A stretch of DNA of 64,000 nucleotides. Source: Isoetes taiwanensis (taxonomy: Eukaryota; Streptophyta; Lycopodiopsida; Isoetales; Isoetaceae). A model generated the notes under the pieces. The model made no database searches. It was given only the letters and a program-made list of their open reading frames with translations, and was not told where the DNA came from. The stretch lies in NCBI GenBank assembly GCA_021234155.1, contig JAJEKV010000017.1, positions 4,870,792 to 4,934,791 on the forward strand, in the 5' to 3' direction. Shown here piece after piece: positions 23,914 to 63,953 of this stretch. Positions within the stretch are counted from its first letter, which is position 1. Every line of letters starts with the position of its first letter. A program made the position numbers and the translations under genes.

Positions 23914-24165
23914 TGAGGATAGAGTGCATAGATGGTATGGATTCCCTTGTCGTAGGGCTTCATTATTAGGATTCTACTTTTCAAAATAGGCATGCCTTAT
24001 GACGGTTTACATTTTTTGGATCCACATTCTTCATGTCTGGACACATGCTATGGACAACGTCTAGTAGAATCTCCACAAGGAAATGCTCAACGAGTAAGGT
24101 TGAACGATGCCTTTGAGATGAATTACAGAAGCCTCATATGACAAAGAATATAAATAGAAGATATT

Positions 24166-24237
24166 TGTGGTTGCTGGGAGTCGAGCCCAGGTCTCCACGG
24201 CCACAACGTGGAATTCTAACCATTAAACTACAACCAG
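24166..24237 (-). tRNA. tRNA-His-like (GTG), type 1 site
   Basis: Anticodon loop TTGTGGC inside stem CCACG/CGTGG gives GTG. The A box (TGGTTTAATGG-like) and the B box GGCTCGACTCC are readable. The first acceptor base is C instead of G, so pair 1-72 is lost. No T-run follows. Confidence 0.65.
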
Positions 24238-24426
24238 AACAACATAAGGAAGCAATTTTAGTAAAACATACGTATTCTAAACTTCTAATTGAAGTAAATA
24301 CAAAGTTTTTGGATTTCTACAAAATATAATCTTTCAATCAGGAGCAAAAACAATATCTACAAGAAACTTATATGCACGACAATGATGGGCATTTTTAGCA
24401 CATGTAAAATAAGTAGATGTCATGCA

Positions 24427-26293
24427 TCTTATATTATAAAGTTTTAGCGTATGTCTTGCATCAAACCCTAATTTAGATAGTTGAGATTGTCTGATTGCAT
24501 TCAAAGGCCGAGATTTATCGCACAACTTCCCACCACCGTGATTGGCCATGCTCTGATCTCTTAAGAGGAAAGGGAAAATGACAGAGAAAAGGGCAAAGTG
24601 AGAGGCAAAAAGGCACGGGTAAAAGGGAAAGACGGAGAAGGGAAAAGGAAAGGGAAAAGAGCACGAAAAAGGGAAAGAAAAAGAAAGGGAGAAAAAGGAA
24701 GGAAAAAAGGACACTATGAAAAGGAGAAGGGGGAAAGGGTGAGGACATAATAAGGGAAAAGAAAAGGGGAAGGGAGGAAAAGGAAGAAAAATAGGGCAAC
24801 GGGAAAAAAGGTGAAGACAGAAAGGGTGACGGAAGGGAAAAAGGGGAAGATAAGAATGATGGAGAGAAGGAAAAAAGGGCATGGAAAAATAGAAAGGGAA
24901 GGAAAAAGGAAAAAGGAGGCGAAAAAGGGAAAATGGCATGAGGAAAAGGGAGAGGGAAATGAGAGAGGATGAAGAAAGTGGCACGAGAAGAGGAAAAGGG
25001 TGAGGAAAGGAAAAAAAGAAAGGGAAAAAGAGATGGAAAAAGGGAAAAGGGAAAAGCGAAAAGCAAAAAGAGAACAGAAAACATGGAATAGGAAAAGAGG
25101 AAAAGGGAAAAGGGGAAGAGGGTGGTAAAAGGAGGAAAAAGGGCATGTGAAAAAGGGGAAAAAATGGAATGGAAAAAGGGTGGGAAAATGGAAAGGAAAA
25201 GAGAGAAGGAAAAAAAAAGAGTGGAAAGGAAAGAGGAAAAGTGCATGGAAAAAGAGAAAAAGATGAAAAAAAGAAGGAAAAAGGAAAAAGGAAATGGGAG
25301 GCGAAAAGGGAAAGGGGAAAGAAAAAAGAACACGAGGAATAAGGAGGGAAAATGGAAAAGAAGAAGGGAAAAAGGGTGGGAAAAAAAACCGGAAGAGGGA
25401 AAGGGTGAGGAAAGGGTAAAAAATAAAGGGAAAAAGAGAGCATGGGGAAAGGGAAAAGAAACTTCCTCTAAAAAAAGGGGAATAGGGATGGGGAAGAGGG
25501 AAGAGGGTAGGGAAAGGCGGAAGAAAAGGCAAGTAAAAAAAAAGTGGAAAAAAAGGAATGGAAAAATACATGAAAAGGGAAAAGGAAAAAGGAAAGGGAA
25601 AGGGAAAGGGAAAGGGAAAGAGAAAAGAGAAAAGGAAGGGGGGAAGGAAAGAGGAAAAGGGCACGGGAAAAAGGGAAAGGGTGGGGAAATGATGAAAAAA
25701 GAAGGAAAGGGAAAAAGAAAAAGGGAGGCAGAAAGAGGAAGAAGAAAATGGAAAAAAAGAGACATGAGATAAAGAAGAAAAGGGTGAGGAGAGGAAGAAA
25801 AACATAAAAAAAAAAGGTGGGGAAAAGGGAATGCAAAAAGGGCATGAGAAAAGGGAAGGGAAAAGAGAAAAGCAAAAGGAATGGAAAAAGGAAAGGGAAA
25901 AAAGAGCATGAGAAAAATGGGAAGGGTGGAGAAAGGTGAAAAGGGAAGGAAAAAAGCCGTCAAAAAAAGGGAAAGGGAAAGGGAAAAATGAGAAGGAGAA
26001 AAGGAAAGAAAAGAGGAGGGAGAAGAGGGTAAAAAAGAAAAGAAAAAAAAAAGAGAGAAGGAGAAAAGTAAATGTGCAGGGAAAATAAGAAAAGGGAAAA
26101 AAAAAGAAAGTCACGTGAAGAAAATGAGAAAAAAAAGGATATCTGAAGGATAGAGCAAAGGGAAGGTTATCAAATGCACAAAAACCTCTTATAGCTTAGA
26201 TATGATGGACTTGGTTAATGAGTCTGAGCTGAATAGGTTTCCATCCACAAATATTCCCAACATTTGCCCAGCAACGCTGGGCACCATTACTAG
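24427..26293 (+). mobile_element. A/G-rich Helitron, subfamily 1, with exact empty site
   Basis: It starts TCTTATATTATAAAGTTTTA and ends with hairpin gcccagc-aac-gctgggc (26266-26282) and CTAG at 26290-26293. The flanks are GTCATGCA on the left and TTCAATATAG on the right. The uninterrupted form GTCATGCATTCAATATAG is present in array units at about 47617 and 49983, proving insertion between A and T with no target duplication. The body is nearly all A/G. It is nearly the same element, in opposite orientation, as 38939-40801. Confidence 0.95.
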
Positions 26294-26423
26294 TTCAATA
26301 TAGACTTTTAGATATATTCGGGTCCATAGATGTCAAAGAGTACCAATTGTGAATGGTTTAGTGTAAAGACAGGTGGGCATTAGCCATTGAATTGGCTTGC
26401 AAGAATAATCTATAGTGATTTTT

Positions 26424-26495
26424 TGTGGTTGCTGGGAGTCGAGCCCAGGTCTCCACGGCCACAACGTGGAATTCTAACCACTAAACTACAACCAC
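26424..26495 (-). tRNA. tRNA-His (GTG), complete cloverleaf, type 2 site
   Basis: 72 bases with the discriminator A. Acceptor GTGGTTG/CAACCAC and anticodon stem CCACG/CGTGG pair fully, and the loop TTGTGGC gives GTG. T stem CTGGG/CCCAG, A box TAGTTTAGTGG, B box GGCTCGACTCC. It matches the plant nuclear tRNA-His plan. No TTTT terminator follows directly on the minus strand. This is the reference copy for the array. Confidence 0.85.
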
Positions 26496-27069
26496 AACCA
26501 CATCAATATAACTTCAATACATTTACCATTGTGTGAAAAAAGGGATCTTATGATCATTTTGTCACCGAAGAAAATACATATCTCGATTTCTCGTAAACTA
26601 CGGGGCCTTCAATCTGAAGCAAAGCTTCTACCTACTACAAACATACTGCCCAGGGATGTCGCGGATTTTTATCAACGTGTAAATGAGCAAAAGTAATGGA
26701 GTGAATAAATAGCTATAGACGTCATCGTGTCCATAGACAAAATAGAGTGTCAACTGCGAATTATTTAGGGTTCCTGGAGTTTAGCATTAGGCTAATTAGC
26801 CATGGAATAGAATGGATAGAGGATGCAGTGCATAGATGGTATGGATTCCCTTGTCGTCGGGCTTCATTATTAGGATTCTACGTTTCAAAATAAGAAGGCC
26901 TTATGACGGTTTACATTTTTTGGATCCGCATTCTTCATGTCTGGACACATGTTATGGACAACGTCTAGTAGAATCTCCACAAGGAAATGCTCAACGAGTA
27001 AGATTGAACGATGCCTTTGAGATGAATTGTAGAAGCCTCATATTACAAAGAATATAAATACATGATATT

Positions 27070-27141
27070 TGTAGTTGCTGGGAGTCGAGCCCAGGTCTCC
27101 ACGGCTACAACGTGGAATTCTAACCACTAAACTACAACCCC
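27070..27141 (-). tRNA. tRNA-His body with GTA anticodon, type 1 site
   Basis: The anticodon loop reads TTGTAGC, so positions 34-36 are GTA (Tyr) in an otherwise His-type body. The acceptor strand ends CAACTAC, needing a G-T pair, and the 5' side starts GGGG instead of GTGG. Probably a decayed copy. Confidence 0.55.
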
Positions 27142-27413
27142 AACAATATAAGGAAACAACTTTAGTAAAACATACGTATTCTAATCTTCTAATTGAAGTA
27201 AACACAAAGTTTTTGGATTTCTACAAAATATAATCTTTCAATCAGGAGCAAAAACAATATCTACTAGAAACTTATATGCACGACAATGATGGGCATTTCT
27301 AGCACATGTAAAATCAGTAGATGTCATGCATTGAATATAGAAACAATATCTACTAGAAACTTATATGCACGACAATGATGGGCATTTCTAGCACATGTAA
27401 AATCAGTAGATGT

Positions 27414-29178
27414 GGGATGTTAGGGTTAGGTTGCGCTTAGGGCGGTGGCAGGCGGCCGCCCATCTCGTGCAGAGCAAAAAATCCTCACATTTCTGCTGGA
27501 GGAGTGGTCGGAAATCATCCTTGACCACTGGCTTCTATGTTTCTGTAGTTTTTTCGTGGATTGGAGCATGCTGCTGAGCCCCAACGATTCAGACCTGTGG
27601 CAAAGGGGTTTTATTTCGAGCTCGCCTTAGCTCTGAAGAATCCTTAAGCACAAGACCCTGAGGTTAGAACAGTCGCATGTCTCCTTCCTACATTTTAACT
27701 AGAATGGGAAGCCAATCATGCATCAACAGTATGCTTTGTTTTGTTAGCTCATATTGCTGGGGAGGAGCCCAAATCATAATGGTATGCTTTATTCCCTTTC
27801 TCGATGTGTGCCTTGGGCCGATTTCTTTCTCGATTTAGACCGGATATGCTTTGACTCAATCGTAGCTTAGACGATCGCACTCATCGTAGCAAGGATTCGT
27901 TGCACTCACTGCAGCTTAGGGGGTACTAGATGGCTGCAGGCTGTATAGCAAGGATCTGCTGCACTTATTGCAGCTTAGGGACTTCAACTTATCTGGATTA
28001 TTCGGTTTCACTCCGGGCAGATGCTAGAGCAATACCATTTGATTGTGTTTCCCATTTTAAACATGGAAGGACATTTTCTGTTCAAAGATTATGTGTTATT
28101 GTGTTAGATTTCAGTTGGGGCAAGCAAGAACAAGAAATGTGCAGTCCTAGTTCTGATGTTCACTACTGCATTAGATTCAGTTTGGGGTATATCACATTTC
28201 TTATCTGCTACAGACTGGGCTCATCAAGATGAGTGCGTTAGAATTATTCAGCCGGCATCTAAGGTATGATTCTTGCAGTAGTCTATCTGGTGGTGGAGTA
28301 GTTTTGGAATATATTTAGTGTGATGGTCCTTGAGCAGTCCCCTCTGTGTGGATGAGCAAAGAAGACTTCTCAAGAATGGTGGACTTTAGCTTGAGCGATC
28401 CTCTTTTGCTGTGGAGGTCTTTGGGTGCATGTGGCAGCATTCTTCTGTTTTGGTTTAAGCCCTAATTGTTATAGATGTGATGGCATGTAACTTGGATGGA
28501 GCCTAGTTCTTTCATGTTGACCCTCTTTCATCCCAGCTGAAAGGAGGTGTGGATTTCAGAAGAGTGCATCATGAAAGCAATCTGCCTGAAGGCAAGTGAT
28601 TCTAGGAGAACATTGGACGGGAGGCCACATGTTCTTACAGCTGCTAGCAGGTTGAATGGTGGGTTATGAGCCAGCCAGTGGTGGGGGGCTTTAGTTTACT
28701 TTTTCATCCAGTTGGTAGAGCGTAGGGAAGACGAAACCCATTGCAAGTGTTCATGGGCAGTGAAGTGAAGGTGGACCATCCCATTGGGGAGAGGCCTTTG
28801 CATCTATATCTCAAAGAAGAAGGTGAGAATAACACTCTTAAGTACGAGAAATTGGAAAAAGCGTTTTTATTCTTCCAGTAGTACTGTGATATAGATAGTG
28901 TATGGGCCGAGTTAACGCCAGGAATGAAGCTTCCACTTTGTTTGTTGTTGTCCACTGCATTTTCGGAGACGGATCTTAAAGGGGTCTCATCTTCAGGATC
29001 AGGTTGACAGATGGATTATTGTAATGGTGCTTCTACATTTTATTCCATACCTGGGTGGATTGTGCTGAAATGTTTAGGCTATCAGGCTGCCATGGAGCCA
29101 GAAATAAATGTATTTATACATATTATATTATTAATAAAAAACATAAAAATCTTGCCTTAAAAAAAAAAAAAAAAAAAA
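27414..29178 (+). mobile_element. Poly(A)-tailed retroposon with 15-bp target duplication
   Basis: AAAATCAGTAGATGT precedes the element (27399-27413) and follows its poly(A) tail (29175-29189, overlapping the last A's). Removing the insert restores the array sequence AAAATCAGTAGATGTCATGC. The insert starts in a GC-rich stretch (GGGATGTTAGGGTTAGG, GGCAGGCGGCCGCC) and ends CTTGCCTTAA plus about 18 A's. The end resembles the LINE 3' end at 47402 (CTGCCTTAACCTC plus A's). It has no reverse transcriptase or long frame. A 50-bp-scale duplication (AGCAAGGAT...CTGCAGCTTAGGG) lies at 27879-27977. It is either a transcript copied by LINE machinery or an internally unrelated non-autonomous LINE derivative. 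Confidence 0.8.
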
Positions 29179-29325
29179 TCAGTAGATGTCATGCATTGAA
29201 TATAGAGTTTTAGATATATTCGTGTCCATAGATGTCAAAGAGTACCAATTGTGAATGGTTTAGTGTAAAGACAGGTGGGCATTAGCCATTGAATTCATTT
29301 GTAAGAATAATCTATAGTGATTTTT

Positions 29326-29397
29326 TGTGGTTGCTGGGAGTCGAGCCCAGATCTCCACGGCCACAACGTGGAATTCTAACCACTAAACTACAACCAC
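29326..29397 (-). tRNA. tRNA-His (GTG), type 2 site
   Basis: Same structure as 26424-26495; one change (C to T) in the variable region. Acceptor, anticodon and T stems are intact. Confidence 0.8.
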
Positions 29398-29956
29398 AAC
29401 CACAACCACATCAATATAACTTCAACACATTTACCATCGTGTGAAAAAAGGGATCTTATGATCATTTTATCACCGAAGAAAACACATAGTCTCTGGATTC
29501 TATAAACTACAGTCCTTCAATCTGAAGCAAAGCTTCTACCTACTACAAACATACTGCCCAGGGATGTCGCGGATTTTTATCAACGTGTAAATGAGCAAAA
29601 GTAATGGAGTGAATAAATAGCTGTAGATGTCATCGTGTCCATAGACGAAATAGAGTGTCAACTGCAAATTATTTAGGGTTCCTGGAGTTTAGCATTAGCC
29701 ATGGAATAGAATGGATAGAGGATGGAGTGCATAGATGGTATGGATTCCCTTGTCGTCGGGCTTCATTATTAGGATTCTACTTTTCAAAATAAGCAGGCCT
29801 TATGACGGTTTACATTTTTTGGATCCGCATTCTTCATGTCTGGACACATGTTATGGACAACGTCTAGTAGAATCTCCACAAGGAAATGCTCAACGAGTTG
29901 CCTTTGAGATGAATTGTAGAAGCCTCATATTACAAAGAATATAAATACAAAATATT

Positions 29957-30028
29957 TGTGGTTGCTAGGAGTCGAGCCCAGGTCTCCACGGCCACAACGT
30001 GTAATTCTAACCACTAAACTACAACCAC
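29957..30028 (-). tRNA. tRNA-His (GTG), type 1 site
   Basis: Anticodon GTG. The anticodon stem has one mismatch (A27 opposite G43) and the T stem one wobble. The acceptor stem is intact (GTGGTTG/CAACCAC). Confidence 0.7.
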
Positions 30029-30312
30029 AACAACATAAGGAAACAACTTTAGTAAAACATACGTATTCTAATCTTCTAATTGATGTAAACACAAAGTTTT
30101 TGGATTTCTACAAAATATAATCTTTCAATCAAAAGGAAAAACAATATCTACTAGAAACTTATATGGGCATTCTTAGCACATGTAAAATCAGTAGATGTCA
30201 TGCATTGATTATAGAGTTTTAGATATACTCGTGTCCATAGATGTCAAAGAGTCCCAGACAGGTGGGCATTAGCCATTGAATTGGCTTGTAAGAATAATCT
30301 ATAGTGATTTTT

Positions 30313-30384
30313 TGTGGTTGCTGGGAGTCGAGCCCAGGTCTCCACGGCCACAATGTGGAATTCTAACCACTAAACTACAACCAC
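30313..30384 (-). tRNA. tRNA-His (GTG), type 2 site
   Basis: Anticodon GTG. One anticodon-stem mismatch (A31-C39, from AATGTGG on the plus strand). Other stems are intact. Confidence 0.75.
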
Positions 30385-30844
30385 AACCACATCAATATAA
30401 CTTCAATACATTTACCATCGTGTGAGAAAAGGGATCTTATGATCATTTTGTCGCCGAAGAAAACACATAGTCTTTGGATTCCTGTAAACTACAGTCCTTC
30501 AATCTGAAGCAAAGCTTCTACCTACTACAAACATACTGCCCAGGGATGTCGCGGATTTTTATCAACGTGTAAATGAGCAAAAGTAATGGAGTGAATAAAT
30601 AGCTGTAGATGTCATCTTGTCCATTGACGAAATAGAGTGTCAACTGCGAATTATTTAGGGTTCCTGGAGATTAGCATTAGCCATGGAATAGAATGAATAG
30701 AGGATGAAGTGCATAGATGGTATGGATTCCCTTGTCGTAGGGCTTCATTATTAGGATTCTACTTTTCAAAATAAGCATGCCTTATGACGGTTTACATTTT
30801 TTGGATCCACATTCTTCATGTCTGGACACATGTTATGGACAACG

Positions 30845-31577
30845 TGTTAGAACTAGACAACACTTGTACAATTTAATCCTAGCAAAAATGTCTTTAAATT
30901 TCACTCTTATGATAATTCAAGCTTATCAAACTTTTTTATGCTTCACAACAACATTTGCATTTCAATCAAATCCTTCACACTAACAAGGAAGCCACATTAT
31001 GGTCAATAATTCCTTGCTCAAATTGATCTTCAACAACAACAAGTATGTACTAGTCAACTTTCTTTAGAATATAATCCTTCAACCATTAATTTCCCAACAC
31101 CAACTATTGTAATCGTTCACTGTAGCAAAGGGATTGACTGAGTTCCTGTAGCAACGTTGACTGCCTCCATTCGATCATATATGAGACGGATCAGAGCATC
31201 CTTGGATTCGAATCATTCTTCAAAGCTCTGCTCCACCTTATAATAGAACAGTCCGGCGGTTTAGCATTGCCGGATCAACTTTCTTATTCAAGCAAAGTCT
31301 TCATTCTAAATATCCCACATGCGTTTTCTTCAAAAACGATATTCGAGCTCAACCTTCGAATATTTACTATCTACAACTATTTCTTCAATGCTTAACCATT
31401 AACATCTTTAACCATAATTTTACTATTAACCTTTAGCTAACTTCCATAGCTTTAAGGTTTGCAATGATGCCATTAGATATTGTAGTTTCTATCTGCATGT
31501 GAGCCTCACTCAAAATTTATTTGACTGCAACAACCTATACTGTTCCTCATAATATGACATGATTCACATTTTCAACA
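30845..31577 (-). repeat. copia 3' LTR (733 bp)
   Basis: On the minus strand it begins TGTTGAAAATG directly after a purine tract and ends TTCTAACA at the array flank, giving the standard TG...CA ends. Confidence 0.8.
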
Positions 31578-31587
31578 CTTCCCCTTC
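31578..31587 (-). promoter_or_regulatory. Polypurine tract of the copia element
   Basis: GAAGGGGAAG on the minus strand lies directly before the LTR start. It is the usual primer for plus-strand DNA synthesis. Confidence 0.75.
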
Positions 31588-33106
31588 ATGTCATATCTCC
31601 TTGTGTCATATCTGAATCTGTATGCATGATTTGTTTTCTGAGCTCAGTGAACCTTTTCTCTGCCAGAACCTTTGTTAAAATATCTGCTACATGTTTATCT
31701 GTACTAATATAATTAACTTGGATCAAACCTTTGCATACTGCATCCATGATGAAATGCATTTCTAATTCTATATGCTTCGACCTTTCATGCATTACTGGAT
31801 TTCTGGTCATGGCTATGCAGCTTGTGCTGTCACATAGCATCTCACTAGAGTTTGGCTGCTCAACTCCAAGTTCTAAAATTAACCTCCTTTCCCATATTAG
31901 TTCTTTTGCACATAATGTGGCTGAGGCATATTCAGCTTCTGCAGTTGACAATGCTATAGATGACTGTTTTTTGCACTTCCAAGCTATAAGACCTCCTCCA
32001 AGCATCATAAGGTATCCTGATGTTGACTTTCTTGCATCTAAATCTCCTGCCCAGTCAGCATCACAGAAAGCAGTCAATATTAAGTTTTTTGAATTGTATG
32101 CAATTCCCATATCCATAGTGCCTTTTAAATCACGTTTTGCAGCAATCCAATGATCCTTCCCTGGATCATTGTTATATCTACTGAGCATGTTTACACTATG
32201 AGCAATATCTGGCCTTGTGCAATTAGCAACATAGGCTAGGCATCCTGTTAAAGATCTATATGGAATTTTCTCCATAATTTTCCTTTCTTCATCATTTTTA
32301 GGACACATGTCAAGAGAAAGCTTACATCCTGGTGCAGCAGGAGTTTTACTAATGTTACATTCTTTCATTTTAAATTTCTCAAGCATACCTCTGATCTGCT
32401 CCTTTTGAGTTAAAATGATGGTACCTTTATCCCTATTTCTTGACACCTCAATCCCTAAAAACTTTGTAAGTTCTCCAAGGTCTGACATTTCAAATCTGCT
32501 TTTCAATAACCTTTTGCACATCAATAAACATTTTGTCCCTTTGGCCACCATAATGTTGTCATCAACATATAAAGCAATAATGCACCAACCGTCTTGACAT
32601 TCAAATTTATACAAATTCCCATCATTCAAAAACTTAACAAATCCTTGTTCAATAAGATAAGAATCCATGCATTTGTACCATTCTCTAGGAGATTGTCTTA
32701 GCCCATAAACTGCCCTTTTCAATTTCCAAACCTTATCTTCCCCTTGCTCAAATCCTGGTGCTTGTTTCATGAAAATTTCCTCATCTAATTTTGCATTTAA
32801 GAAAGCAGTTTTTACATCCATGTGATGCACTTCTAGATTCCATGCATTTGCCAAAGCCAATAGCATTCTGACACTGTTCATTTTTACTAAAGGAGAAAAT
32901 GTTTCATCAAAATCCTGACCTTTTTTCTGTGAGAAACCCTGAGCAACCAGTCTGGCTTTGTATTTAGGTGATTTACCATCTGCTCCAGTTTTGATTCTGA
33001 AAATCCATTTATTGCCTACTATATTCTTACCTTCTGGAGTGTTCACTGTTTCAAAAGTGTCAGTCTGACAAAGGAGTCCATTTCCTCTTTCATAGCATTT
33101 AGCCAC
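31586..33106 (-). pseudogene. copia reverse transcriptase and RNase H
   Basis: Copies retrotransposon RNA into DNA in cytoplasmic particles. It reads NKWIFRIKTGADGKSPKYKA, then TAFLNAKLDEEIFMKQAPGF, the active-site LYVDDN (YVDD at 32558-32569), SRYNNDPGKDHW, and the RNase H region with DADWAGDLDARKSTSGY and SSIALSTAEAEYAS. It ends at a stop just inside the purine tract. This frame is open for 506 codons, so most of the domain is preserved. The join to the upstream integrase frame needs a frameshift near 33060, so the polyprotein is broken. Confidence 0.9.
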
Positions 33107-34440
33107 TGCTCTTTGTCATTTGAAACTAGAACATCATCTAAGGTTTTTGGCACTTCTGGGTTTAGGTGCATTAAAATTTCAAAAACATTGTTTACCTCAT
33201 GCTCCTGTTCAGCTTGCAATCTCCTACTCCTTCCAGCTTCATCACGACCATGCATCTCAGTCTCAAATCTCAAGCCTGCTTGAAGTTTTTGCACTTCTGT
33301 CATTCTTTTCCTTTTTTCTTGAGGTTGTTGTTGAACTATAGGTACAGATCTTTCAATCTGACTTGTATCTATTGATTCTTCTTCACCTCCCCCTAATGAG
33401 TCTTCAATTTCTTCCTGAAATTCTGTTTGTGTTTCAGCCTCAGTCTCAGCATCATCATCTGTATCAATCTCATTTACTTTGTCAGTAGATACAGCCTTAA
33501 CATTTTGTTCAGTCAACTTAACAGTTTCAGGTAGCTTTATAGGTCTGGATAATACTTTGTAAACTTGCCCCTCATCAAAGAAAACATCTCGGCTAACAAT
33601 TACCCTTCTTGCTTTAGGATCATATAGCCTATAAGCCTTGGACTGATTATCATACCCTATTAGATATGTAATTAGAGCCCGATCATCTAATTTTTTTCTG
33701 TTTTCCTTTGGTATATGAACAAATGCTAAGCATCCATACACTCTCAAATTTTCATAATTTGGTTTCTTTCCTAACCAAAGCATATCAGGAATTCCACCAT
33801 GTGTACTAGCAGATGGCAACATGTTCTGAATAGTCACAGCAGTTTGAACTGCCTCTTCCCATAAAAAATTTGGTAACCCTGCTGATTTTAACATGCTCCT
33901 AACAGCATTTAAAATTGTTCTGTTCTTCCTTTCAGCTACACCATTCTGTTGTGGGGAATGACTACAAGCTAGTTGCCTTTTAATGCCTTTATTCTTGCAA
34001 AACCTCTTAAATTCTCCTGATAGGAACTCACCTCCTCTGTCAGACCTCAAACATTTGATCCTTCTTCCTGTTTCAGTCTCCATCTCATTAACAAATTGTT
34101 TGAACTTTTCAAAAGCTGCATCTTTAGTTTTAATGCAATACACTTTAGTTTTTCTACTGAAATCATCTATTAGAGTCATAAAGTATCTCTTCCCACTCAA
34201 ACTAACAACATTAAGTGGTCCACACAAATCCGTATGTACCAAATCCAAAATACCCTTTGCTCTTGCACCTTTTTTCTTAAAAGGTAACCTGTTGTGTTTG
34301 CCAAGCATACATCCCATGCAGACTTGTTTTTCAGATTGAGTTGTGCTGGTATTAATGAATCCTTCCTTGTTTAATACCTCTATTGTAGCAGGATTAACAT
34401 GACATAATCTTTCATGCCAGATTTTTGAGAGATGGATAAG
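33043..34440 (-). pseudogene. copia integrase with GAG-pre-integrase remnant
   Basis: Inserts the cDNA into the host genome. A pre-integrase piece (WHERLCHVNPA) is readable around 34390-34440 in one frame. The core follows with LVHTDLCGP, LIDDFSRKT, RSDRGGEF and SPQQNGVAERKNR, which hold the D, D and E of the catalytic triad. The C-terminal part has YGCLAFVHIPKENRKKLDD and YRLYDPKARRVIVSRDVFFD, then an acidic linker. The frame ends at a stop after the shift near 33060. It belongs to the same element as the RT at 31586-33106. Confidence 0.9.
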
Positions 34441-34661
34441 TCGACAAATTTATCTTGGACATCAAATGTTGTCTGTTTTAATCCATATAAATTTCCAACT
34501 CTTTTTCCCACAAACATTTTTTTTTTATTACCAAGAAAAATATTACAATGAAGTTTTTCAAACACCACTTTATAGCCAAGATCAACCAAGCGGCATATTG
34601 AAATAAGATTTCTTATTAATCTGGTATGCACAACACATTTTTTACTTTCTGACTTTGCCTT

Positions 34662-35510: not shown

Positions 35511-35689
35511 CTTTCCTCTGAGTTTTTAGCACATGTAAAATCAGTAGATATCATGCATTGAATATAGAGTTTTAGATATATTCGTGTCCATAGATGTCAA
35601 AGAGTACCAATTGTGAATGGTTTAGTGTAAAGGCAGGTGGGCATTAGCCATTGAATTGGTTTGTAAGAATAATCTATAGTGATTTTTTT

Positions 35690-52496: not shown

Positions 52497-52569
52497 TGTG
52501 GTTCTTTGGGAGTGGTGAGGATCTCCCGCGACCACAGCGTGGAATTCACAACCACTAAACTACAGCCAC
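52497..52569 (-). pseudogene. tRNA-His-like remnant, type 2 site
   Basis: GTGGTTCTTTGGGAG, then CCACAGCGTGGAATTC; the B-box region is destroyed. Confidence 0.5.
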
Positions 52570-53152: not shown

Positions 53153-53227
53153 TGCATAGTTGCTGGAAGTTGAGCCGAGGTCTCCACGACTACAGCATTG
53201 AAATTCTAACCACTAAACTACAACCAC
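53153..53227 (-). pseudogene. tRNA-His-like remnant, type 1 site (GTA-type)
   Basis: AGTTGCTGGAAGTTGAGCC and GACTACAGCATTG; corresponds to the GTA-type copies at 36327 and 48663. Confidence 0.5.
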
Positions 53228-53416
53228 AGCAACATAAAGGAAACAACTTTAGTAAAACATACATTATTCTAATCTTCATTGAAGTAAACACAAAGTTTTT
53301 AGTTTCTACAAAATATAATCTTTCAATAGGGAGCAAAAACAATATCTACTAGAAACTTATATACCCATTAATGATGGAGCATTTTTGCTTTATGTAAAAT
53401 CGGTAGATATCATGCA

Positions 53417-55745
53417 TCCTATATTATAATGTTTTAAGCGTGTGTCCGTTTTCCATCAAACCCTAAATCTAATGGTGTAGATTTGATTGAAACTAATCGG
53501 ACAGTGATGATTTTATTACAATATCGAATTAAGGAAAAGGGAGAATAAAAAGGAAAAGTGAAGGGAGAAAAAGGCTTACGAGGAAAGGGAAGAGAGGGGA
53601 AAAGGGCATGGGAAAAGGGAAAGAAGAGAAAAAAAGTGGCATATGGGAAAAGGGAAAAAAGAAAAGAAAAAACAAAAGAGGGAGAGAGGAATGGGGAGCG
53701 AGGAAGGGCAATATGAGGAAAAGAGTGGGGAAATGAGGAAAATTATGAAGGAAAAGGGGGCATTGAAAAGCGAAAAGGAAGAAAAATCACGAGGAAAGGG
53801 ATAAAGGGAAAGGGAAAATGGGCATTTGGAAAGAAAGGGAAGAGATAGAGAAAAAGGGCTTACGGGAAAAAAAGAGGGCAAAAAGAGTTGAAAAGAGAGA
53901 GAGAAAAAAGGAAGGAAAAAAAAGAGCATGGAAAAAATAAAAAGAAAAAAAAAAAAAGGAGGAGAGATGCTCAAAGGGAAAAGAAAGAAAGAGGATAGAG
54001 AGGAGGAAAAAGGAAGCGCATGGAAAAGGAGGAAAAAGGGAGAGCAGGCGTAATGGAAAAGGGAAAGAGAAAAAAAGAAAGGAGGGAGAAAAAGAAAAAG
54101 AACCGCGGGGAAAAGGGAGGTTAGGGAAAGGAAAAAGAAAAAAGGGGGTGGAAAGATGAAAAAGGAAAAGGAAAAAGAACCACGAGGAAAAGGGAGAAGA
54201 AAGGGAAAAAGGGAAGGAATGAAGTGGTGAGGAAGGAGGATAAATAGCAGGGAAAGAGAAAAAGAAAGGGAGGAGGGAGGAAAGGGAAGGAAAAAAAAAA
54301 GACAATGGGAAAGGGGAAGAGGAAAGAGGCATGGAAAAGAGGAAAATAGAAGCAAAAAGAGGGAAGAGAGGAGAATGATGTAGAAGTGAAGAAGAAGGAG
54401 CATTTAAAAGAAAAGGAAAAAAGGAATGCAAAAAGGGAAACTGGGGAAGGGAAAATATAAGAGCCTGAGGAGAAAGGAGAGGGAAATTGAAAATGGGAAG
54501 GGGAAAGGAGAAAAAGGGCCGCGAGGAAAAGGTGAGAAAGGGAAAAAAGGAAAGGGAAAAAGCATGGAAAAACGAAGAAAAAAAGAAAAAGGAGGAGAAA
54601 GCGGTATGAGGGGAAAAAGAGAAAGAGGATGGAAAAAAGCGAAAAAGGTCCAGGAGAAAAGGGAAGCGCCCACATTGGAAAAGGGAAAAGAGAGAAAGGG
54701 AAAGGGGAAAGAAAGTGAAAAAAGGACAGGAAAGAGGAAAGGATGAAAAGGGAAGGGAAAGAAAAAGAAAAAGAGTGGAAAGGAAAACAAAAGGAAGAGG
54801 AAAAAAAAGGACAGGAATAGGAAGAGGAAATGAGAAAAAGAGAGAGGGAAAATGGCATAGAAGAAAGGAAGAGAGAGAAAGAGATTAAGAGAAAAAAATG
54901 AAGGAAAAAAGAAAGCATGGGACAAAAGGGAAAAAAATAAAGGGAGAAGGGCATGAGGAAAGCAGGGGGAAAAGAGGTCGCGAAAAAGAAGAAAAGGGGA
55001 CACATGAAAAAGGGGGAAAAATGGAAGGAAAAAAATGGCACAAGAAATGGGAAGAGAGGAAATGAAAAAAGAGAGGAGGAGAAAGGGCATGAAAAAAAGG
55101 AAGAAGAGAGAGGAAGGGTGAGAAAAAAGAAAAGTGAAGAGCATGGGACAATGGAAAATAGAAAGAAAGAAAAAGATACTAGGAAGAAGAGCCTGAGGAA
55201 AAAAGAAAGGAAGAAGGTCGAAAAAAAGAAGAAAATGGACATGAAAAAGGTGGGAAAAAAGGAGGCATAGGAAAGAGGAAATAGAAAAGAGGAAAAGGAA
55301 GGGGGGAAGAGGAGAAAAGAGGAAAAAGAAAAAGGAAGAAATTTGGGGAAAGGATGAGGGAAGGAAAAAAATCATCGAGAGAAAAAGGAAAGGAGAAAAA
55401 AAGGAGGAAACGGGATGTGGAAAGGGAAGGGAAGGGAAAAAGCGAGATAAAAAAAGGGGAAAGAAAAAGGGAAAAAATTGTGTGTAGGGAAAAAGAAAAA
55501 ATAGAATTGTGTAAGGAAAATGGGAAAAAAGAAGAGAAAAGAAAAAAAGGAAATCTTGGGATAGAATAGAATAGAGCAAAAGGCAAAAAGATAAAAAGGG
55601 AAATGATACTCGAGTGCACAAAATCTCTTGAGCTTAAATTCTATTATCTAAAGATTTTATATGAAAAGAGAGTTAAGACGAACATGTTTTCCTCCATACA
55701 GTTTTCAACTTATGCCCGGCAACGGCTGGTACACAAATTACAGAT
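53417..55745 (+). mobile_element. A/G-rich Helitron with degraded 3' end
   Basis: It starts TCCTATATTATAATGTTTTA after CATGCA, the same array position hit by 24427-26293. The 5' block CAAACCCTAAATCTAATGG is present, then a nearly pure A/G body from about 53520 to 55600. The 3' end reads TATGCCCGGCAACGGCTGGT and then ACACAAATTACAG, an altered form of the family hairpin and CTAG. The array resumes as ATTGAATATAGAG. The right boundary is accurate only to a few bases. Confidence 0.8.
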
Positions 55746-55882
55746 TGAATATAGAGAGTTTTAATATATTAGAGTATCCATAGATGTCAAAAAGAGTACA
55801 ATTGTGAATGGTTTTAGTGTAAGAGCAGTGGGCATTATCCATTGAATTGGTTTGTAAAATAATCTATATGAAGAGTGATTTT

Positions 55883-55958
55883 TGTAGTTTAAGCAGGGAG
55901 TTGAGCCCAAGTCTCCCGCGACCACAGCGTGGAATTCTAACCACTAAATTACAACCAC
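55883..55958 (-). pseudogene. tRNA-His-like remnant, type 2 site
   Basis: GGGAGTTGAGCCCAAGTCTC and CACAGCGTGGAATTCTAACC are present; the acceptor 3' side is altered (TAGTTTAAGCA). Confidence 0.5.
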
Positions 55959-56836
55959 AGCCACATCAATACCTGCTTCAACACATTTTACCGCCGTGCG
56001 AAAAAGGGATCTTATGATCATTTGTCACTACATAGTCACAGTTCCCGCAAACTACAGGTCTTCAATGCGAAAGGCAAAGCTTCTACCTACAAACATATCT
56101 TTGCTTGAGGATGGCCGCGGATTTTTTATCAGCGTGTAAATAAAGAGCAAAAGTAATAGAAGTGAATAAATGACATAGATGTCATAGGTGTCCATAGGCG
56201 AGGAAAATAAATTATCAAGCACCAAAATTATTAGGGTTTTGGAGTTTAGCATTAGCCATGGAATAGAATGGATAGAGGATGGAGTGCATAAGATGTTATG
56301 GATTCCCTTGTCATTGAGGGCTTCATTATTAGGATTCTACTTTTTCAAAATAGGCGTACCTTATAGCCAGTTTTACATTTTTGGATCACATTCTTCATGT
56401 CACGGACACATGTTATGGACAAGCGTCCTGAAGTAGAATCTCCACAAAGTACTCCAGTAAGGTTGAGCGATGCCTTTGAGATGAATTGCATAGGATGGAG
56501 TGCATAGATGGTATGGATTCCTTGTCGTAGGGCTTCATTGTTAAGTTCTACTTCCAAAATAGGCATGCCTTATGGCCGGTTTACATTTTTTTGGATCCAC
56601 ATTCTTCATGTCACGGACACATGTTATGGACAGCGTCACAGTAGAATTCTCCCGCAAGGAAATGCTCAAGCGAGTAAGGTTGAAGCCGATGCCTTTGAAG
56701 GATGAATTCGCGAAGCCTCCTTATGACAAAAGAATATGAATTAGAAGATACATACTTGACAAAAGAATATGAATAGAAGATATTTGTAGTTCTTTGGGAA
56801 TTAAAAGTATGACAAAGAATATGAATAGAAGATATT

Positions 56837-56887
56837 TGTGGGGAATTTGGTACGCGACTGCAGATTCAAGCGTTAAACTACAGCGAG
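56837..56887 (-). pseudogene. Badly decayed tRNA-His-like remnant, type 1 site
   Basis: Only the flanks (GAATAGAAGATATTTGTGG, GTTAAACTACAGCGAGAACA) place it; most of the body is deleted. Confidence 0.35.
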
Positions 56888-57001
56888 AACAACATAAGGA
56901 AGCAGCAGTAAAACATCATTATTCTTTTCTAATTAAGTATAAACTACAAAGGATTTTGGATTTCTACAAAATATAATCTTTCAATGGGAGCAAAAACAAT
57001 A

Positions 57002-60000
57002 TCAATCTTGTTAATTTGGGATTTTCGGGTTGGTGAAAAATATTTTTGGAATTTTTAGCTTGATTTCTAAAAGATTTTTGTAGGTTTTAAAGCTGACGAA
57101 ACATCACGATAGTCAAATATTAGAACTTTTAGCTATGATTTTGCTTCTTGGATTTCCCTCTTAGCGATAAGGCATGATACAGCACTCATTTGCCATATAC
57201 AAGCCGCATGCATTTAGAGGATTTTCTGCGGGGCAAGTGCGGCGGCAAAAGTACATGTACATGCCATTGTTTATTACGCGCTCGCGCCATATCACGTTCT
57301 ATTTTGCGGTACATGCTTTGCGGAAGAAGGGGATATACTTATCGCGATTATCACGGAAAGCATGGTTTCTATTGTTGATTGATTATATATATAAGAAAGC
57401 TAAAGCATGTCATTCTTATTTTCAATAGCCTTTATTACAGTGCGCAACAAATGCGATATGGAAGGAGGCAAAAAGGCGTTATCGGAGGACATCATTACGG
57501 CATATTACAAAACATAGAGTTATTTCGATTTACGTATTTGTTGAAGGGAGCTTCTTAAGTTATGATAAGGTGACCCGGCTATTCTCAAAAATCCAAGAAT
57601 ATTTCCTATTGCGTGCATGGCACCACCATTTTTCAAAGCGTTACTAGCATTGCCCAACTCTAGCAGGACAATCGCAGAGACAAGATGTTACGGAATGTTT
57701 TGGAGTCTTTCTCATAGGTGCAGCGGCCCTCTTAACAGAGTTCGCTGATATCTTTCTTTTCTCCTAGGTTGAGCTTTCTCCTTTGGCGGACTCGAAGACT
57801 TAGAGTGTTGTATAGTCATTTTGCTCTCTTGGAAACAAATGTCTTGATGGCATAGCATGTGAGTTTGTTTTGGAATAGGTAAAACCATATAGTAGTTGGA
57901 GCCTATCCATTTTTTAGATGCCTACAGAGCTAATCACATACTATTTCCATGTGAATTGAGATTATAGTATGCATTTTTCGAGGTCAATATGAATGTTTAT
58001 ACAAAACAATTATCATCTACTTTTCGCGGTTAGGAAGTTCAAGCACATTTCAGCTATGTAGAATTTCTCAAGTTGAAGCGATTTGAAACTATAGGTCCAT
58101 ATGAAAATGGATGCATTTGTACTACCAAAAACTAAATATCAACGCGAAGCGAGGTAAGGTTTATGTTTGTAAGATTGGGTATATCATAATTACGGATTTT
58201 TCAAGTCTCTAATATTTGCATTTTATCATACTTTGCTGACCTAGAGTTTCATTTTCTTTATTCAAAAGAATTCTTAAGGGGTCAATTTTGGCCCCGAAGT
58301 AGTTAAGCGAAACATTTTCTCCATAATGCGATCATGAGGAGTTAGGCAGCAACTACTACGAGAGGTGAAATCGGTTGATACATGGCGCTAGAGAATAGAA
58401 GTCTTGAAAATTTTACATCTCCTTCAACATCTTTTGGAAATCAGCGTTTGAATCTTGATGTGATTTCTACTATTTAGACTATGAATGGAGTATTTGTAGT
58501 ATATGACAACTAATATGATACAATGGAAGATATGAATGAGATGGTGAATCATGGTGTAATCCGTATAGGATATGATGGAATATTAATGGGTGGCGATGCT
58601 GATGCATGGCACCTCTCATGTGATGGTTTAAGAAGATTTCCCTTGACTATAGAGGCGGCGAGAATTCCCATGACTATAGAGGCATGATCACGACTAATAT
58701 GTGAGAAAGCATTACAACTTAAAATTAACATGTAGAAACTGCTTGATGGTTTGGGGACACTCTTATGTTTTAAGACAAAGGGGCTTTGGGATTTTATTAG
58801 GGGCGACCTCTAAGACATTGGCCCGGCTTTGTTTCCCGGTGCCTCTGTGCATATTGTTTTTCGCGGTCACAAGGTCTTCTATTCTAATGACATCTATACT
58901 TGGTATGATATGTTTGGATTTTCTTGCATGAAATCTTTTGTTTTATTGTTGGGCATTGCACTAGGGAGTAAGACATTTGCATAAAAAGTCGAGAAATATG
59001 CGTTTGGATGCTACTTTTCACGAGGAACCATGTTTCTTAGGTTTGCGTGATCACACGGCGGCGACAATCCGTGGTATGCCACTTTAGTCACAATATGAGG
59101 AACCTCTAGCAGTACTTGAGTACATGGTATGACATTTCTTTGCATGAAACCTTTTGTTTTATTGTGGGCATTACACTTAGGGGTAAGACATTAAGCATAA
59201 AATTTCAGAAATATGTGTGTTTGGGACCGCTACTTTTCGGAGAACCATGTTTCTTCACGTTTGTATCCCCGATCTGGGCCGGCTGACAATTCTTCTTGGC
59301 CTTTTATGCCACTTTCCGCAATATGAAGGAAACCTCTAGCTGAGGTGCTTTTATGATGAACTCCATCTCCTTCCTTGCTCAAGTTATTATTGGTTGCATA
59401 TTGCTTCTCTTTACTAAAAACTAGGTCTCTTCACAATTTGAACATCACGGATAGTTGCTTCATAATGGGATCGGGGGCTATTCATTTTGGATAAAAAGAA
59501 ATTAGTTTGTGCTCAATGTATGGAGGTCAGATCTCATCCTAGACATGGATCATTGTTAAATGCCATTTTGAGTCATGAAGAAGGCTATCTTGAAAGAGTT
59601 CTTATATTGCGAGGGGAAAATATTCACCTTTATCTACCATTGCATTATGGTGACATTATATCTGAAATTCTCATTTATAACTACACATGCCTTAATTTAT
59701 AATTTTTGTGTAGTTTTACGTGGTTTAAATTTCAAACTTATATACATAGTTCCTTCTTATAAAGTATATTGCCGTAGGAAATAAGAACTAGGTTTCTTGA
59801 CCTTTCATTTATTCTCATAATACAATCATTGACTTCCACCATTGGATTTTTCCTGCACCTTCTAGAAACACTTATGCCTATAAAGTTAAGAATAGAATGC
59901 ATGTTAAAGGTGCTTTCGGAAGTGATGGGACTTTCCTTCAAGTGATCACGTTGCATTTACAATGCACAAAATTATAAGCTTCCCGATTGCTTTATCTTTG

Positions 60001-61880
60001 GTGAACCTATAGTTGTTTACGTTATACTTTATCTTTAAGCTTTGGGTAAGATACCATGTTTTTGATGTACTTTTCTGATATACACTATAAGTTGAGGATT
60101 AAAAGCAGAAGTTTTTGTGTTCTCATTCTCCGGGATGTGCAAGGCGTTGAAGATGTATTTAACATTGGTCAACAATCTTACTCAAATAGGACTTATTCTT
60201 GAAGTTGGGCTTTACATTACGGCGAACTTTGGGTACATTAGTTATAGAACCCTTGAGGAGTGAGGAAGCCCGGATTATATCAGTGAAAGATGCACATTAT
60301 CTTCTTTCTTGAAGAAAAGATCTTATGGAACGTTTGATCTTCTTTTACATTTAGATTTTCAAAAGCATTTTTTTACTTCTGTCACCACATCCAATATGAT
60401 GCATTTGTATTTGCGTTTGCTATTGCTTGCAGAGTTGCTCATACTTTATAACATTTATCTGGATAATAATGCAGATAGGAATCTAATTTCCTGCAAATAT
60501 AGTCATGGAAACAACTAGATCTAAAATAACAAGTTTGTTAAGTTACAATGTGTAGACACTTGGTTGTTTCCAAATTGGAGTCAACTAGACACATATTTGA
60601 AGATGAGATAGAAGACTCTACATACTTCCAACAACTACAACATGTATTGACAGGAGTAAAATTAGTGGTGGTCTCATAATTTAAATAGTGATGACACATT
60701 CAGCTCAAATCTCTATCAATTCCTTATGCACATGTTCCCCACAATACTTTCTTATTTTTATCATAATATCAATTGTCTATCTGTATTTTCCTATCGTAAA
60801 TAAATTCAGGTCTCCAAAAACTGCAGTGAAATGTAGATTGCTGACTTATATCAATTGCCTCCACAAATTTAGAATTGCCAACTCTTGGTTTCTGCAAATA
60901 CCATCTAATCACAAGACATGCCTCAAATGCTTGCACAAATTTAGAAAATAAGGCCAATAAGAGTTGTACACAAATATCACGTAATGGTATGTGATTGGGG
61001 ACGTAATAATACACTTTGTCTAGAACCAAATGTAGCACTTTTGTAGAGGTATTGCTTTTGTTGCTCGCGTAATTTTTTTATATTGCTAAATTTGAATAGG
61101 GTCTTAAAGTCTTTTGTTGATTCCTTTGCATTTGAATGACATTGCCATTTGTTGACCATGTACCTTCACTCAAACCCAAAGGTTATATAAGAATATAATG
61201 AATAATATAGCTGGTTGGCCTTAAAATGAATGCAAAGCTGAGTTCACGTTTTGTGAACTGCAAACAACTTAATGCTGAGGTAGATAAACTATAACAAATT
61301 ACACCCCTTGCTACTATTATGTGACTTAGCACCAACCAGTGTATACTCACTGACCATCTCTAACATAGACTACTAACATCATTTGCAACATCATTCCATC
61401 TAAACAACTTTAGATCCTATTGAATCCTGAGCAATGACTATAATTTGAACATTTACAAAATCACATTGAAAGCCTGGCAACAATGATCCCCTTCATAGGA
61501 GCATCGATATTATTGTGACATTTGAATTTGATATTTGAAAACATAATGGCCTATTATGATTCATGTTATGTGCCTTTGGAACTATTTCATGGAGTCGTCT
61601 TATGCTACAACAATGACCAACAACAAGCTAAAATATTTTGATATTCCATGATGATTCTACATTCTTATCCAAAGTTGTATTACTCACAACATAATACGCA
61701 CATAATTCTACTACCAACCATACACATATGTATGTATATAGAATGAACATCAATCTTGGACAATAACTTAAAAGGAGCATGATTAACAACCCTACAAATC
61801 TCCTTAGATCCTAGATCTTATTCATATAATTCTACGATAAAATTGTATTTACGCCCGGCAACGCCGGGCACCATAACTAG
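57002..61880 (+). mobile_element. 4.9-kb Helitron without a polypurine body, exact empty site
   Basis: It starts TCAATCTTGTTAATTTGGG after AACAATA and ends with hairpin gcccggc-aac-gccgggc (61853-61869), spacer ACCATAA and CTAG at 61877-61880 before TCTACAAGAAAC. Other units contain the joined AACAATATCTACAAGAAAC (for example near 47545 and 49915), so the borders are exact. The inside has no Rep/helicase and no gene that I can name. It is AT-rich, with short frames only (the longest about 80-90 codons, none with a recognisable domain) and a direct duplication at 58901-59345. Confidence 0.85.
58901..59345. repeat. ~226-bp direct duplication inside the Helitron
   Basis: Two diverged copies share TTTTGTTTTATTGT-GGGCATT, AGTAAGACATT/GTAAGACATT, AGAAATATG-GT-TTTGG, GAACCATGTTTCTT and CAATATGAGGAACCTCTAGC or a close form. 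The first copy is about 58901-59124, the second about 59127-59345. Confidence 0.7.
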
Positions 61881-62079
61881 TCTACAAGAAACTTATATGC
61901 ACGACAATGATGGGCATTTTTAGCACGTGTAAAATAAGTAGATGTCATGCATTCAATATAGACTTTTAGATATATTCGGGTCCATAGATGTCAAGAGTAC
62001 CAATTGTGAATGGTTTAGTGTAAAGACAGGTGGGCATTAGCCATTAGATTAGCTTGTAAAATAATCTATAGTGATTTTT

Positions 62080-62151
62080 TGTAGTTCTTTGGGAGTCGAT
62101 CCAGTCTCCCGCGACACAGCCTGGAATTCTAACACTAAGCTTCACAACCAC
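62080..62151 (-). pseudogene. tRNA-His-like remnant, type 2 site
   Basis: GTAGTTCTTTGGGAGTCGA and CACAGCCTGGAATTCTAACA; degraded copy. Confidence 0.5.
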
Positions 62152-62716
62152 AACCACATCAATATAGCACAACACATTTTACCATTTGTGTGAAAAAGGG
62201 ATCTTATGATCATTTGTCACAGAAAGAAAATAGGTCTACAGTTTCTTGTAAACTAAGGTCCTTGTCCCCGGAAGCAAAGCTTCTACCTGCTACACTTGAG
62301 GATAGCCGGCGGATTTTTATCAGCGTGTAAAGCGAGCAGTAATGGAGTGAATAAATAGCTATAGGCGTCATACGTGTCCATAGACAAAATAAATTAATCC
62401 AGCTACTTGAATTATTTAGGGTTCTGAGTTTAGCATTAGCCATGAATAGAATGGATAGAGGATGGAGTGCATAGATGTATGGATTCCCTTGTCGTCGGGC
62501 TTCATTATTAGGATTCTATTTTTCAAAATCCGGCGAGCCTTATGATGGCCGGTTTTACATTTTGGATCCGCATTCTTCGTAATGCGGACACATGTTATGG
62601 ACAGCGTCACAGTAGAATCTCCACAAAGGAAATGCTCAGCAGTAAGGTTGAGCGATGCCTTTGAAGGGATGAATTGTAGAAGCCTCATATTACAAAGAAT
62701 ATAAATACATGATATT

Positions 62717-62789
62717 TGTAGTTGATGGGAGTCGAGCCCAGTCTCCACGGCTACAACGTGGAGATTCTAACCACTTAAACTACAACCAC
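62717..62789 (-). pseudogene. tRNA-His-like copy, GTA-type, type 1 site
   Basis: Better preserved: GGGAGTCGAGCCCAGTCTCC and GGCTACAACGTGGAGATTC give a GTA loop, with three small indels. Confidence 0.55.
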
Positions 62790-63111
62790 AACAACGCAGA
62801 AATAATTTTGGTAAAATATCATTATTCTAATCTTCTAGTGAAGTAAACACAAAGTTTTTGGATTTCTACAAAAATATAATCTTTCAATCGAGGGAGCAAA
62901 ACAATATCTACTAGAAACTTGCCAATACATGACAATGATGGGCATTTTTAGCACATGTGAAATCGATAGATGTCATGCATTGAATGCGAGTTTTTAGATA
63001 TATTGAGTGTCCATAGATGTCAAAAAGAGTACCAATTGTGAATGGTTTAGTGTAAGAGAGCGGTGGGCATTAGCCATTGAATTGGTTGTAGGAATAATCT
63101 ATAGTGATTTT

Positions 63112-63181
63112 TGTAGTTCTTTGGGAGTCAGGCAGTCTCCGCGGCCTAGCGATGGAATTCTAACCCATAAACTACAACCAC
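63112..63181 (-). pseudogene. tRNA-His-like remnant, type 2 site
   Basis: TTCTTTGGGAGTCAGGC and GCGATGGAATTCTAACCC; anticodon region altered. Confidence 0.45.
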
Positions 63182-63766
63182 AACCACAGCCACATCAATA
63201 TAACTTCAGCACATTTACCATACGTGTGAAAAAGGAATCTTATGGTCATTTTGTCCGCCGGGAAGAAAACACATAGTCTCACGGATTCCGCATAAAACTC
63301 ACGGTCCTTCAATGCGGAAGCAAAGCTTCTATCTACTACAAACATATCACTTGAGGGGATGTAAGCGGATTTTTATCCCAAAAGCGTGTAAAATGAGCAA
63401 AAGTAATGGAGTGAATAAATAAGTACATGGAAGTATCATGACATCCATAGAGCGAAATAAATTAATCAGCTACAAATTATTTAGGGTTCTTTAGCATTAG
63501 CCATGGAATAGAATGGATAGAGGATGGGTATAGATGAGTATGGATTCCCGCGTACCATTGGGAGCACATTATTGGGATTCGCACCGAAATAAGCATGCTT
63601 ATGGCGGTTTACATTTTTGGATCCGCATTCTTCATGCGGACACATGTTATGGACAGCGTCAGTAGGAATCTCCCACAAGGAAGTACTCCAGCGAGTAAGG
63701 TTGAGCGATGCCTTTTGGGGATAGATTACGGGAAGCCTCATATGACAATATAAATAGAAGATATTT

Positions 63767-63835
63767 TGTAGTTCTTTGGGAGTGAGGCGGTCTCCACGGC
63801 CACAATGTGGAATTCTAACCACTAAACACAACCCC
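63767..63835 (-). pseudogene. tRNA-His-like remnant, type 1 site
   Basis: GTCTCCACGGCCACAATGTG (GTG loop retained) and AATTCTAACCACTAAAC; the T arm is damaged. Confidence 0.5.
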
Positions 63836-63953
63836 ACAGCAACATAAGAAATAACTTTTAGTAAAACATACGTTTTCTAATCTTCTAATTGAAGTAAACA
63901 CAAAAGTTTTTGGATTTCTACAAAATATAATCTTTTAATGGGGAGCAAAACGA

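Follow-up and report, generated by a model that had tools for sequence, protein, structure and literature searches.

Anatomy of the tRNA-His locus

The genome of the lycophyte Isoetes taiwanensis (assembly GCA_021234155.1) carries in one of its contigs (JAJEKV010000017.1, hereafter C985) a tandem array whose repeated unit contains two tRNA-His genes. The array was reported in a first-pass annotation of 64,000 nucleotides of this contig (C985:4870792-4934791, the window in what follows), which offered three readings of it: a tRNA supply array, a satellite that had captured a tRNA, or a dead amplified block. Our analysis, whose genome-wide searches covered 1.66 Gb in 1110 contigs, shows that the array is real and larger than first noted, and that it belongs to a known kind, the tandem plant tRNA cluster, in a new variant. 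Most probably, a variant tRNA-His gene that was once functional has here been amplified to a satellite of megabase size, which is now in decay and for the most part silent.

The consensus unit measures 1,035 bp, and the starts of its tRNAs are spaced 635 and 400 bp apart, in agreement with the unit of about 1.03 kb and the two fixed sites (here A and B) that had been described. A tandem array had also been placed at 23914-63953 of the window, where the repeated units are indeed found; they do not, however, form one continuous run. In the window, 14,553 bp are unit sequence, which lies entirely in interrupted blocks from position 23876 to the right end, and the remainder of this span consists mostly of insertions. 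Moreover, the window shows just part of the array, whose locus extends over about 1 Mb of one contig.

Inside the window, all units lie on the minus strand. The leftmost block is a partial unit (23876-24432) with a site-B tRNA-His (GTG) recognised by ARAGORN and Rfam at 24166-24237, and it is followed by the complete 1.03-kb unit that served as a reference (26295-27340), with a site-A gene (GTG, 26424-26495) equal to the array consensus and a site-B copy with a GTA anticodon (27070-27141). About 1.6 units come next (29198-30847), with tRNA-His copies at 29326-29397 (A), 29957-30028 (B) and 30313-30384 (A), then about 1.8 units (35560-37469), with copies at 35690-35761 (A), 36327-36398 (B, GTA), 36718-36789 (A) and 37393-37464 (B), and a further block (47434-50450), with tRNAs at 47752 (A), 48663 (B, GTA), 49054 (A), 49730 (B) and 50120 (A). 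The units at 50452-53423 are divergent from about 51 kb onwards and hold degenerate tRNAs at 51079, 51476, 52126 and 52506 (22-31 bits in a profile search), together with a copy at 53157 that has a GTA anticodon and scores 40.7 bits. Old degenerate fragments at 55755-57005 keep one tRNA remnant (55892-55958) and two old units at 61871-63969 keep four (62089, 62717 with GTA, 63121 and 63775), after which unit pieces continue past the right window edge.

The 17 tRNAs that ARAGORN predicted between 24165 and 62789 of the window are without exception on the minus strand; 12 have the anticodon GTG and, as a correction to the first-pass annotation, five, which the program called tRNA-Tyr, have GTA. 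When the consensus tRNA was used as a profile, 25 copies were obtained at E ≤ 0.01, again all on the minus strand, which comes close to the 26 or so of the first-pass annotation if degraded copies are counted; ten of these, from 51.08 kb rightwards, score just 17.8-40.7 bits. The gathering score of the Rfam tRNA family (RF00005), taken as the mark of a tRNA-His cloverleaf, was reached at 15 places in the window and, among 20 fetched loci, by 77 tRNAs in 14 of them. The copies at 26424, 29326 and 35690 score 62.5 bits each in this family, and the first and last of them had already been singled out as the best folded.

When the window was joined with 200 kb of its surroundings into a 250-kb stretch (loci L009-L028), unit sequence made up 67,194 of the 250,000 bp, and ARAGORN reported 93 tRNAs: 83 His, six with GTA, two Pro (GGG) and two unassigned, with five of the 93 not attributable to site A or B by the rule that we used. 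Outside the window the unit matches occur on both strands, and the 250-kb stretch contains four strand switches (at about C985:4737-4747 kb, 4763 kb, 4780-4783 kb and 4843 kb). At two of the four the units meet almost without a gap, which suggests inverted duplication. Genome-wide, a one-unit query matched at least 124 pieces, 119 of them on C985 (4.714-5.746 Mb) and five on contig C907, and a profile scan of the 250 kb adds pieces from about C985:4.705 Mb. The units run head to tail and each bears tRNA genes, as in the SYY cluster of Arabidopsis, to which we return below.

The concentration of the array in few chromosomal places, which is typical of satellites, was also seen with 41-nt patterns of the tRNA 3′ half (up to one mismatch) that distinguish array-type from canonical tRNA-His. 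The array type occurs at 90 loci, 88 on C985 (4.747-5.745 Mb) and two on C907, versus six canonical loci on five contigs. A 27-nt core common to both kinds gave 126 genomic matches with up to one mismatch and its reversed control none; with ARAGORN and Rfam also in agreement, a chance resemblance or a misannotation of tRNAs was rejected. A lone dispersed tRNA-His of the array type, which has two changes and is accompanied by a short piece of site-B flank, lies on another contig (L029, C963:14066200-14066600). It has a T-run 21 nt downstream, and its downstream side aligns above shuffles with both sites, although the likeness is weak; this locus is perhaps distantly related to the unit.

Among 143 copies that span a site, the 39 with a deletion were excluded from the counts of pairs and anticodons, and 54 of the 104 deletion-free copies retain all 21 stem pairs and the GTG anticodon, 21 of the 104 being letter-perfect. 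The outcome that the first-pass annotation had set against itself, with all copies scoring as pseudogenes, did not occur. The GTG anticodon is found in 97 of these 104, the others being four GTA at site B and two GGG and one AGG at site A. The GTA base appears in eight of 77 site-B rows of the alignment versus one of 72 site-A rows, and the five of the six GTA copies of the 250-kb stretch that could be assigned to a site are all at site B and all inside the window, a pattern that would fit a single change spread mainly through unit duplication. These copies are not genuine tRNA-Tyr genes, a possibility that was rejected because they have tRNA-His bodies with an altered anticodon and no space for an intron; intron-containing tRNA-Tyr genes occur in all the plant genomes of one survey (PMC11700998). 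At site A, copies with an altered middle anticodon base are found at C985:4747175, 4762613 and 4824028, two of which ARAGORN reads as tRNA-Pro (GGG).

A variant isodecoder at two related sites

Four positions (5, 20, 59 and 68 in our own numbering) distinguish the consensus tRNA of the array from the usual canonical gene. All six canonical genes have C5, A59 and G68, versus T5, C59 and A68 in the array, and position 20, in the D loop, is A in five canonical genes, G in the sixth and T in the array. The changes at positions 5 and 68 together replace a C-G pair of the acceptor stem by a T-A pair, and that at position 59 falls in the T loop. In all, the array tRNA is identical at 68 of 72 positions to five of the dispersed genes, and at 67 of 72 to the sixth, the canonical copy L034 with one extra change. 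The fold has remained intact despite the four changes, with 62.5 bits for the best array copies versus 64.4 for five of the six canonical genes, and the consensus appears to have kept both its A box and its B box, judged by the usual motifs. Charging of tRNA-His by histidyl-tRNA synthetase requires the addition of G-1. Judged by its sequence, the array tRNA-His is a distinct isodecoder with a compensated acceptor-stem pair.

An organellar origin was set aside, given the match of the array tRNA to the dispersed genes at 67-68 of 72 positions. One canonical tRNA-His (L036, C985:4666501-4669000) lies on the left side of the array, about 37 kb from the nearest unit piece seen. Descent of the array from the canonical gene of L030/L036 was also rejected, since the alignment of the flanks, in a comparison that reached C985:4669000, did not rise above shuffles and proximity was its sole support.

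Sites A and B resemble each other well beyond the tRNA, on one side only. Their upstream flanks are identical in 176 of 246 aligned columns (71.5%), with a local score of 85 versus 14.7 ± 2.5 in 1000 shuffles (maximum 26), while the downstream flanks are not alike, with a local score of 12 versus 13.1 ± 2.2 in shuffles. This homology upstream of the tRNA and not downstream led us to drop a short interspersed element (SINE) as the source of the repeats. The unit appears thus as a dimer, built from an ancestral tRNA-bearing monomer of about 370-405 bp and a spacer of about 265 bp after site B, and its two sites are, by this alignment, derived from one older monomer, whose duplication would have preceded by far the multiplication of the 1.03-kb unit. 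The consensus tRNAs of A and B are nevertheless identical at all 72 nucleotides, for which the chance is 3e-11 at the 28.5% divergence of their upstream flanks; the tRNA would therefore have been held constant before the array grew, with selection as the likelier cause and gene conversion over very short distances as the other.

Gene conversion is common in tandem arrays, and this leads to an improbable alternative, in which the array is a homogenised satellite that was never a functional isodecoder, the short conversion tracts being confined to the sole highly similar stretch of the two half-units. The frequencies of variants at the two sites are indeed correlated (Pearson 0.60, Spearman 0.34; 216 possible changes), so that local conversion could explain the identity of the two tRNAs, and this point weighs against a past under selection. 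However, five of the nine changes that reach at least 10% at either site are CG or CHG transitions, whose recurrence is expected, and the GTA base is shared very unequally between the two sites. Moreover, variants are not shared significantly more often between adjacent A and B copies than between permuted ones (52 pairs, 0.135 versus 0.101, P = 0.26), and the four changes from the canonical gene keep the fold, all of which speaks against homogenisation.

Decay, transcription signals and the fate of the array

The period after amplification has left a very different record. In an alignment of 108 rows, each 150 bp or longer and drawn from the 250-kb stretch together with loci L003, L005 and L008 (123 aligned pieces, less 11 below 150 bp, one identical row and three rows of L006 that overlap with L005), the diversity of the tRNAs is 0.095 at site A and 0.092 at site B versus 0.083 in the flanks, and the divergence of each tRNA copy tracks that of its own flank with a slope of 1.12 (n = 138). 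Context-matched transitions are as frequent in the tRNA (0.0320) as in the flank (0.0317). Stems have more substitutions per site than loops (0.0355 versus 0.0196), an excess also present in three of four context classes (CG, CHG and CHH, not A/T), and the 68 broken stem pairs of 2184 equal the permuted expectation of 66.4 ± 1.8. With stems unspared and transitions at the level of the flank, the units behave as those of a satellite under little or no constraint, the one deviation being in transversions (see below). Transitions are significantly raised in CG (0.080) and CHG (0.096) contexts compared with CHH (0.027) and A/T (0.017), which matches the expectation for long-methylated DNA and is supportive of methylation, although not a proof of it.

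The transcription signals around the tRNAs point in the same direction. The six canonical tRNA-His genes, of which L033 and L034 are near-duplicates, all have TTTT 2-16 nt downstream, whereas TTTT within 50 nt is found in 19 of the 93 array copies. The median distance to the first TTTT is 146 nt in the array, and the copies that have none nearby usually meet it at about 146 nt if they belong to site A and at about 178 nt if they belong to site B. The proximal poly(T) terminator of active plant tRNA genes is hence missing from most copies, whose transcripts would therefore have no proximal stop. The CAA motif upstream is also scarce, with none of the 93 array copies having it within 10 nt and seven within 50 nt, versus two and three of the six canonical genes, so that its shortage is just partly specific to the array. 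For comparison, in an angiosperm survey, T-runs lie within 50 nt of 67-72% of tRNA genes, and CAA within 50 nt of 78-82% (PMC11700998).

Because most copies have no near terminator and mutate like the surrounding DNA, the array is probably mostly silent, and the idea of a supply array is disfavoured on both counts. The other two readings of the first-pass annotation fare better, as a mixture of a satellite with a captured tRNA and a dead amplified block, with the correction that the tRNA would have been held constant long before the amplification. In the path that we propose, a variant nuclear tRNA-His gene would have been duplicated first as a monomer of about 370-405 bp, and both copies would have remained functional while their upstream flanks diverged by nearly 30% and their tRNAs stayed identical. 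The dimer, together with its spacer of about 265 bp, could then have been multiplied as the 1.03-kb unit by unequal exchange, with some inverted duplication, to give dozens of units across about 1 Mb. Selection on single copies would have been largely lost from then on, in what would now be a methylated and transposon-riddled satellite whose tRNAs decay at about the rate of their flanks, and most copies, with no proximal terminator for RNA polymerase III (Pol III), would be silent or poorly productive.

Several observations weigh against this history. Both acceptor-stem changes are in a CHG context, so that the compensated pair could be the product of two deaminations, and CHG transversions are raised as well, which makes the signature of methylation impure. 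With context matched, the tRNA has slightly fewer substitutions overall than the flank (0.0501 versus 0.0585, P = 0.077) and clearly fewer transversions (0.0181 versus 0.0266, P = 0.014), the latter being a weak contrary hint. Among the copies with a flank divergence of 0.03-0.06 (58 copies) the tRNA is less divergent than the flank (0.023 versus 0.041), whereas it lies above the flank in the other three bins (59, 10 and 11 copies). The letter-perfect copies are a further point, and at site B the tRNA is less changed in copies with TTTT within 50 nt than in the rest (1.67 versus 2.97 changes, P = 0.019; 15 versus 33 copies), the figures for site A being 1.0 versus 1.81 (P = 0.16; 4 versus 36). 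The lower substitution counts, the low bin and the state of the copies with a T-run may reflect either the age of subfamilies or a slight residual constraint.

Some of these signals would be at home in a conditional reserve, that is, an array silent most of the time and transcribed in particular cells or stresses, where it would raise the supply of the variant tRNA-His. We consider this unlikely. The copies with complete pairing and GTG, the 90 array-type versus six canonical 3′ halves, the seemingly intact A and B boxes, the shortage of transversions in the tRNA and the better state of the site-B copies with a near T-run all favour it. A precedent is given by the SYY tRNAs, produced in root cap cells despite methylation (PMC12308677). 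On the other hand, the stems show no sign of constraint, the diversity of the tRNAs is that of the flanks, and TTTT within 50 nt and CAA within 10 nt are rare or absent, the latter being present in just two of the six canonical genes. A stronger form of the same idea, which we hold to be rather doubtful, would make the locus a living store of a specialised His isodecoder, transcribed conditionally as precursors whose 3′ trailers of about 150-180 nt would match the usual distance of the first TTTT, and with the copies near a T-run supplying the variant tRNA-His, of which there are about 15 genes for each canonical one.

Lastly, an array in which the tRNA body was retained as a binding site for TFIIIC or as a boundary, and not for supply, would make the absence of terminators irrelevant, would agree with the intact B box of the consensus and has a precedent in the human tRNA tandem repeat (PMC4041453), and it is nonetheless very improbable, as the identity that preceded amplification spans all 72 nt, beyond the boxes, and there is little or no present constraint inside the array.

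The satellite born from a functional gene, the reading that we prefer, gives the locus its interest, as it seems to document in nature how a tRNA gene passed from functional duplicate to satellite. A single sequence would hold both a phase of strong conservation, with identical tRNAs between diverged flanks, and a later phase of nearly free decay. Whether such arrays contribute tRNA is a general question for plant tRNA clusters, and here four diagnostic bases (T5, T20, C59 and A68) allow array-derived tRNA to be told from canonical tRNA in reads.

Known tRNA clusters and other features of the window

The nearest example in kind is the SYY cluster of Arabidopsis thaliana, made of tandem tRNA-Tyr/Tyr/Ser units on chromosome 1. 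SYY shares with the present array a tandem unit with several tRNAs, a major intact type accompanied by variants and pseudogenes, and one unit position that is more variable than the others, and it is heterochromatic, silenced in most tissues and expressed in root cap cells (PMC12308677). It differs in its isotypes, its core of intact pairs and its demonstrated conditional expression, whereas the Isoetes array is made of tRNA-His in a dimeric unit of 1.03 kb, extends over about 1 Mb with strand switches and many insertions, and mostly has no proximal terminator.

Amplification of a single isotype in tandem is also known from plant tRNA-Pro clusters and from the tRNA-Ile cluster of maize chromosome 2 (28 genes), which are simpler (PMC11700998). 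The present array is larger, a compensated pair sets its tRNA apart from the canonical gene dispersed in the genome, and it would fall short of the threshold of at least three genes per kb used in that survey. The tRNA-Cys cluster of A. thaliana (PMC10701932) has a one-tRNA unit of about 0.4 kb, like the putative ancestral monomer, and differs in its isotype and in having four genes only. The human tRNA repeat of 1q23.3, a variable number tandem repeat proposed as a boundary element, is likewise a tandem tRNA-bearing unit, in which human-mouse conservation extends little beyond the tRNAs and a CTCF site. Its unit, however, is 7.3 kb long, GC-rich and bound by CTCF, with 9-43 units per allele (PMC4041453). 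No comparable tRNA-His array was found in searches of an open-licence library or in the tRNA-His passages of PMC9526063, although a survey of 50 plants, which mentions clusters of up to 110 genes, may already list one (PMC12652284).

Between the unit blocks of the window lie the insertions that split the array. A Helitron-like element with a polypurine interior and a hairpin plus ACTAGT at its right end (24433-26294, strand not assigned, ends placed by eye) has an inverted copy at 38938-40802 that is 93% identical. By direct reading, 27414-29175 (no strand assigned) is a retroposed sequence that ends in an A-run and has a direct repeat of about 14 bases on either side, and the minus strand of 30848-35522 (approximate ends) holds the remnant of a copia-type retrotransposon with gag and RVT_2 domains. 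LINE-type reading frames with endonuclease, reverse transcriptase and zf-RVT domains are also present within the array span, at 43054-46861. To the left of the array, pieces of an EIN3-type DNA-binding domain occur in two adjacent frames (16015-17031), and a pentatricopeptide repeat fragment lies at 2489-3049. On account of these pieces and of the retrotransposon frames, we take the DNA to be that of a plant nucleus. Finally, the window contains multi-kb, strand-biased polypurine/polypyrimidine tracts at 7700-12600, 18500-22950, 24433-26294, 38938-40802 and 54000-55640, two of which sit inside the Helitron-like elements.

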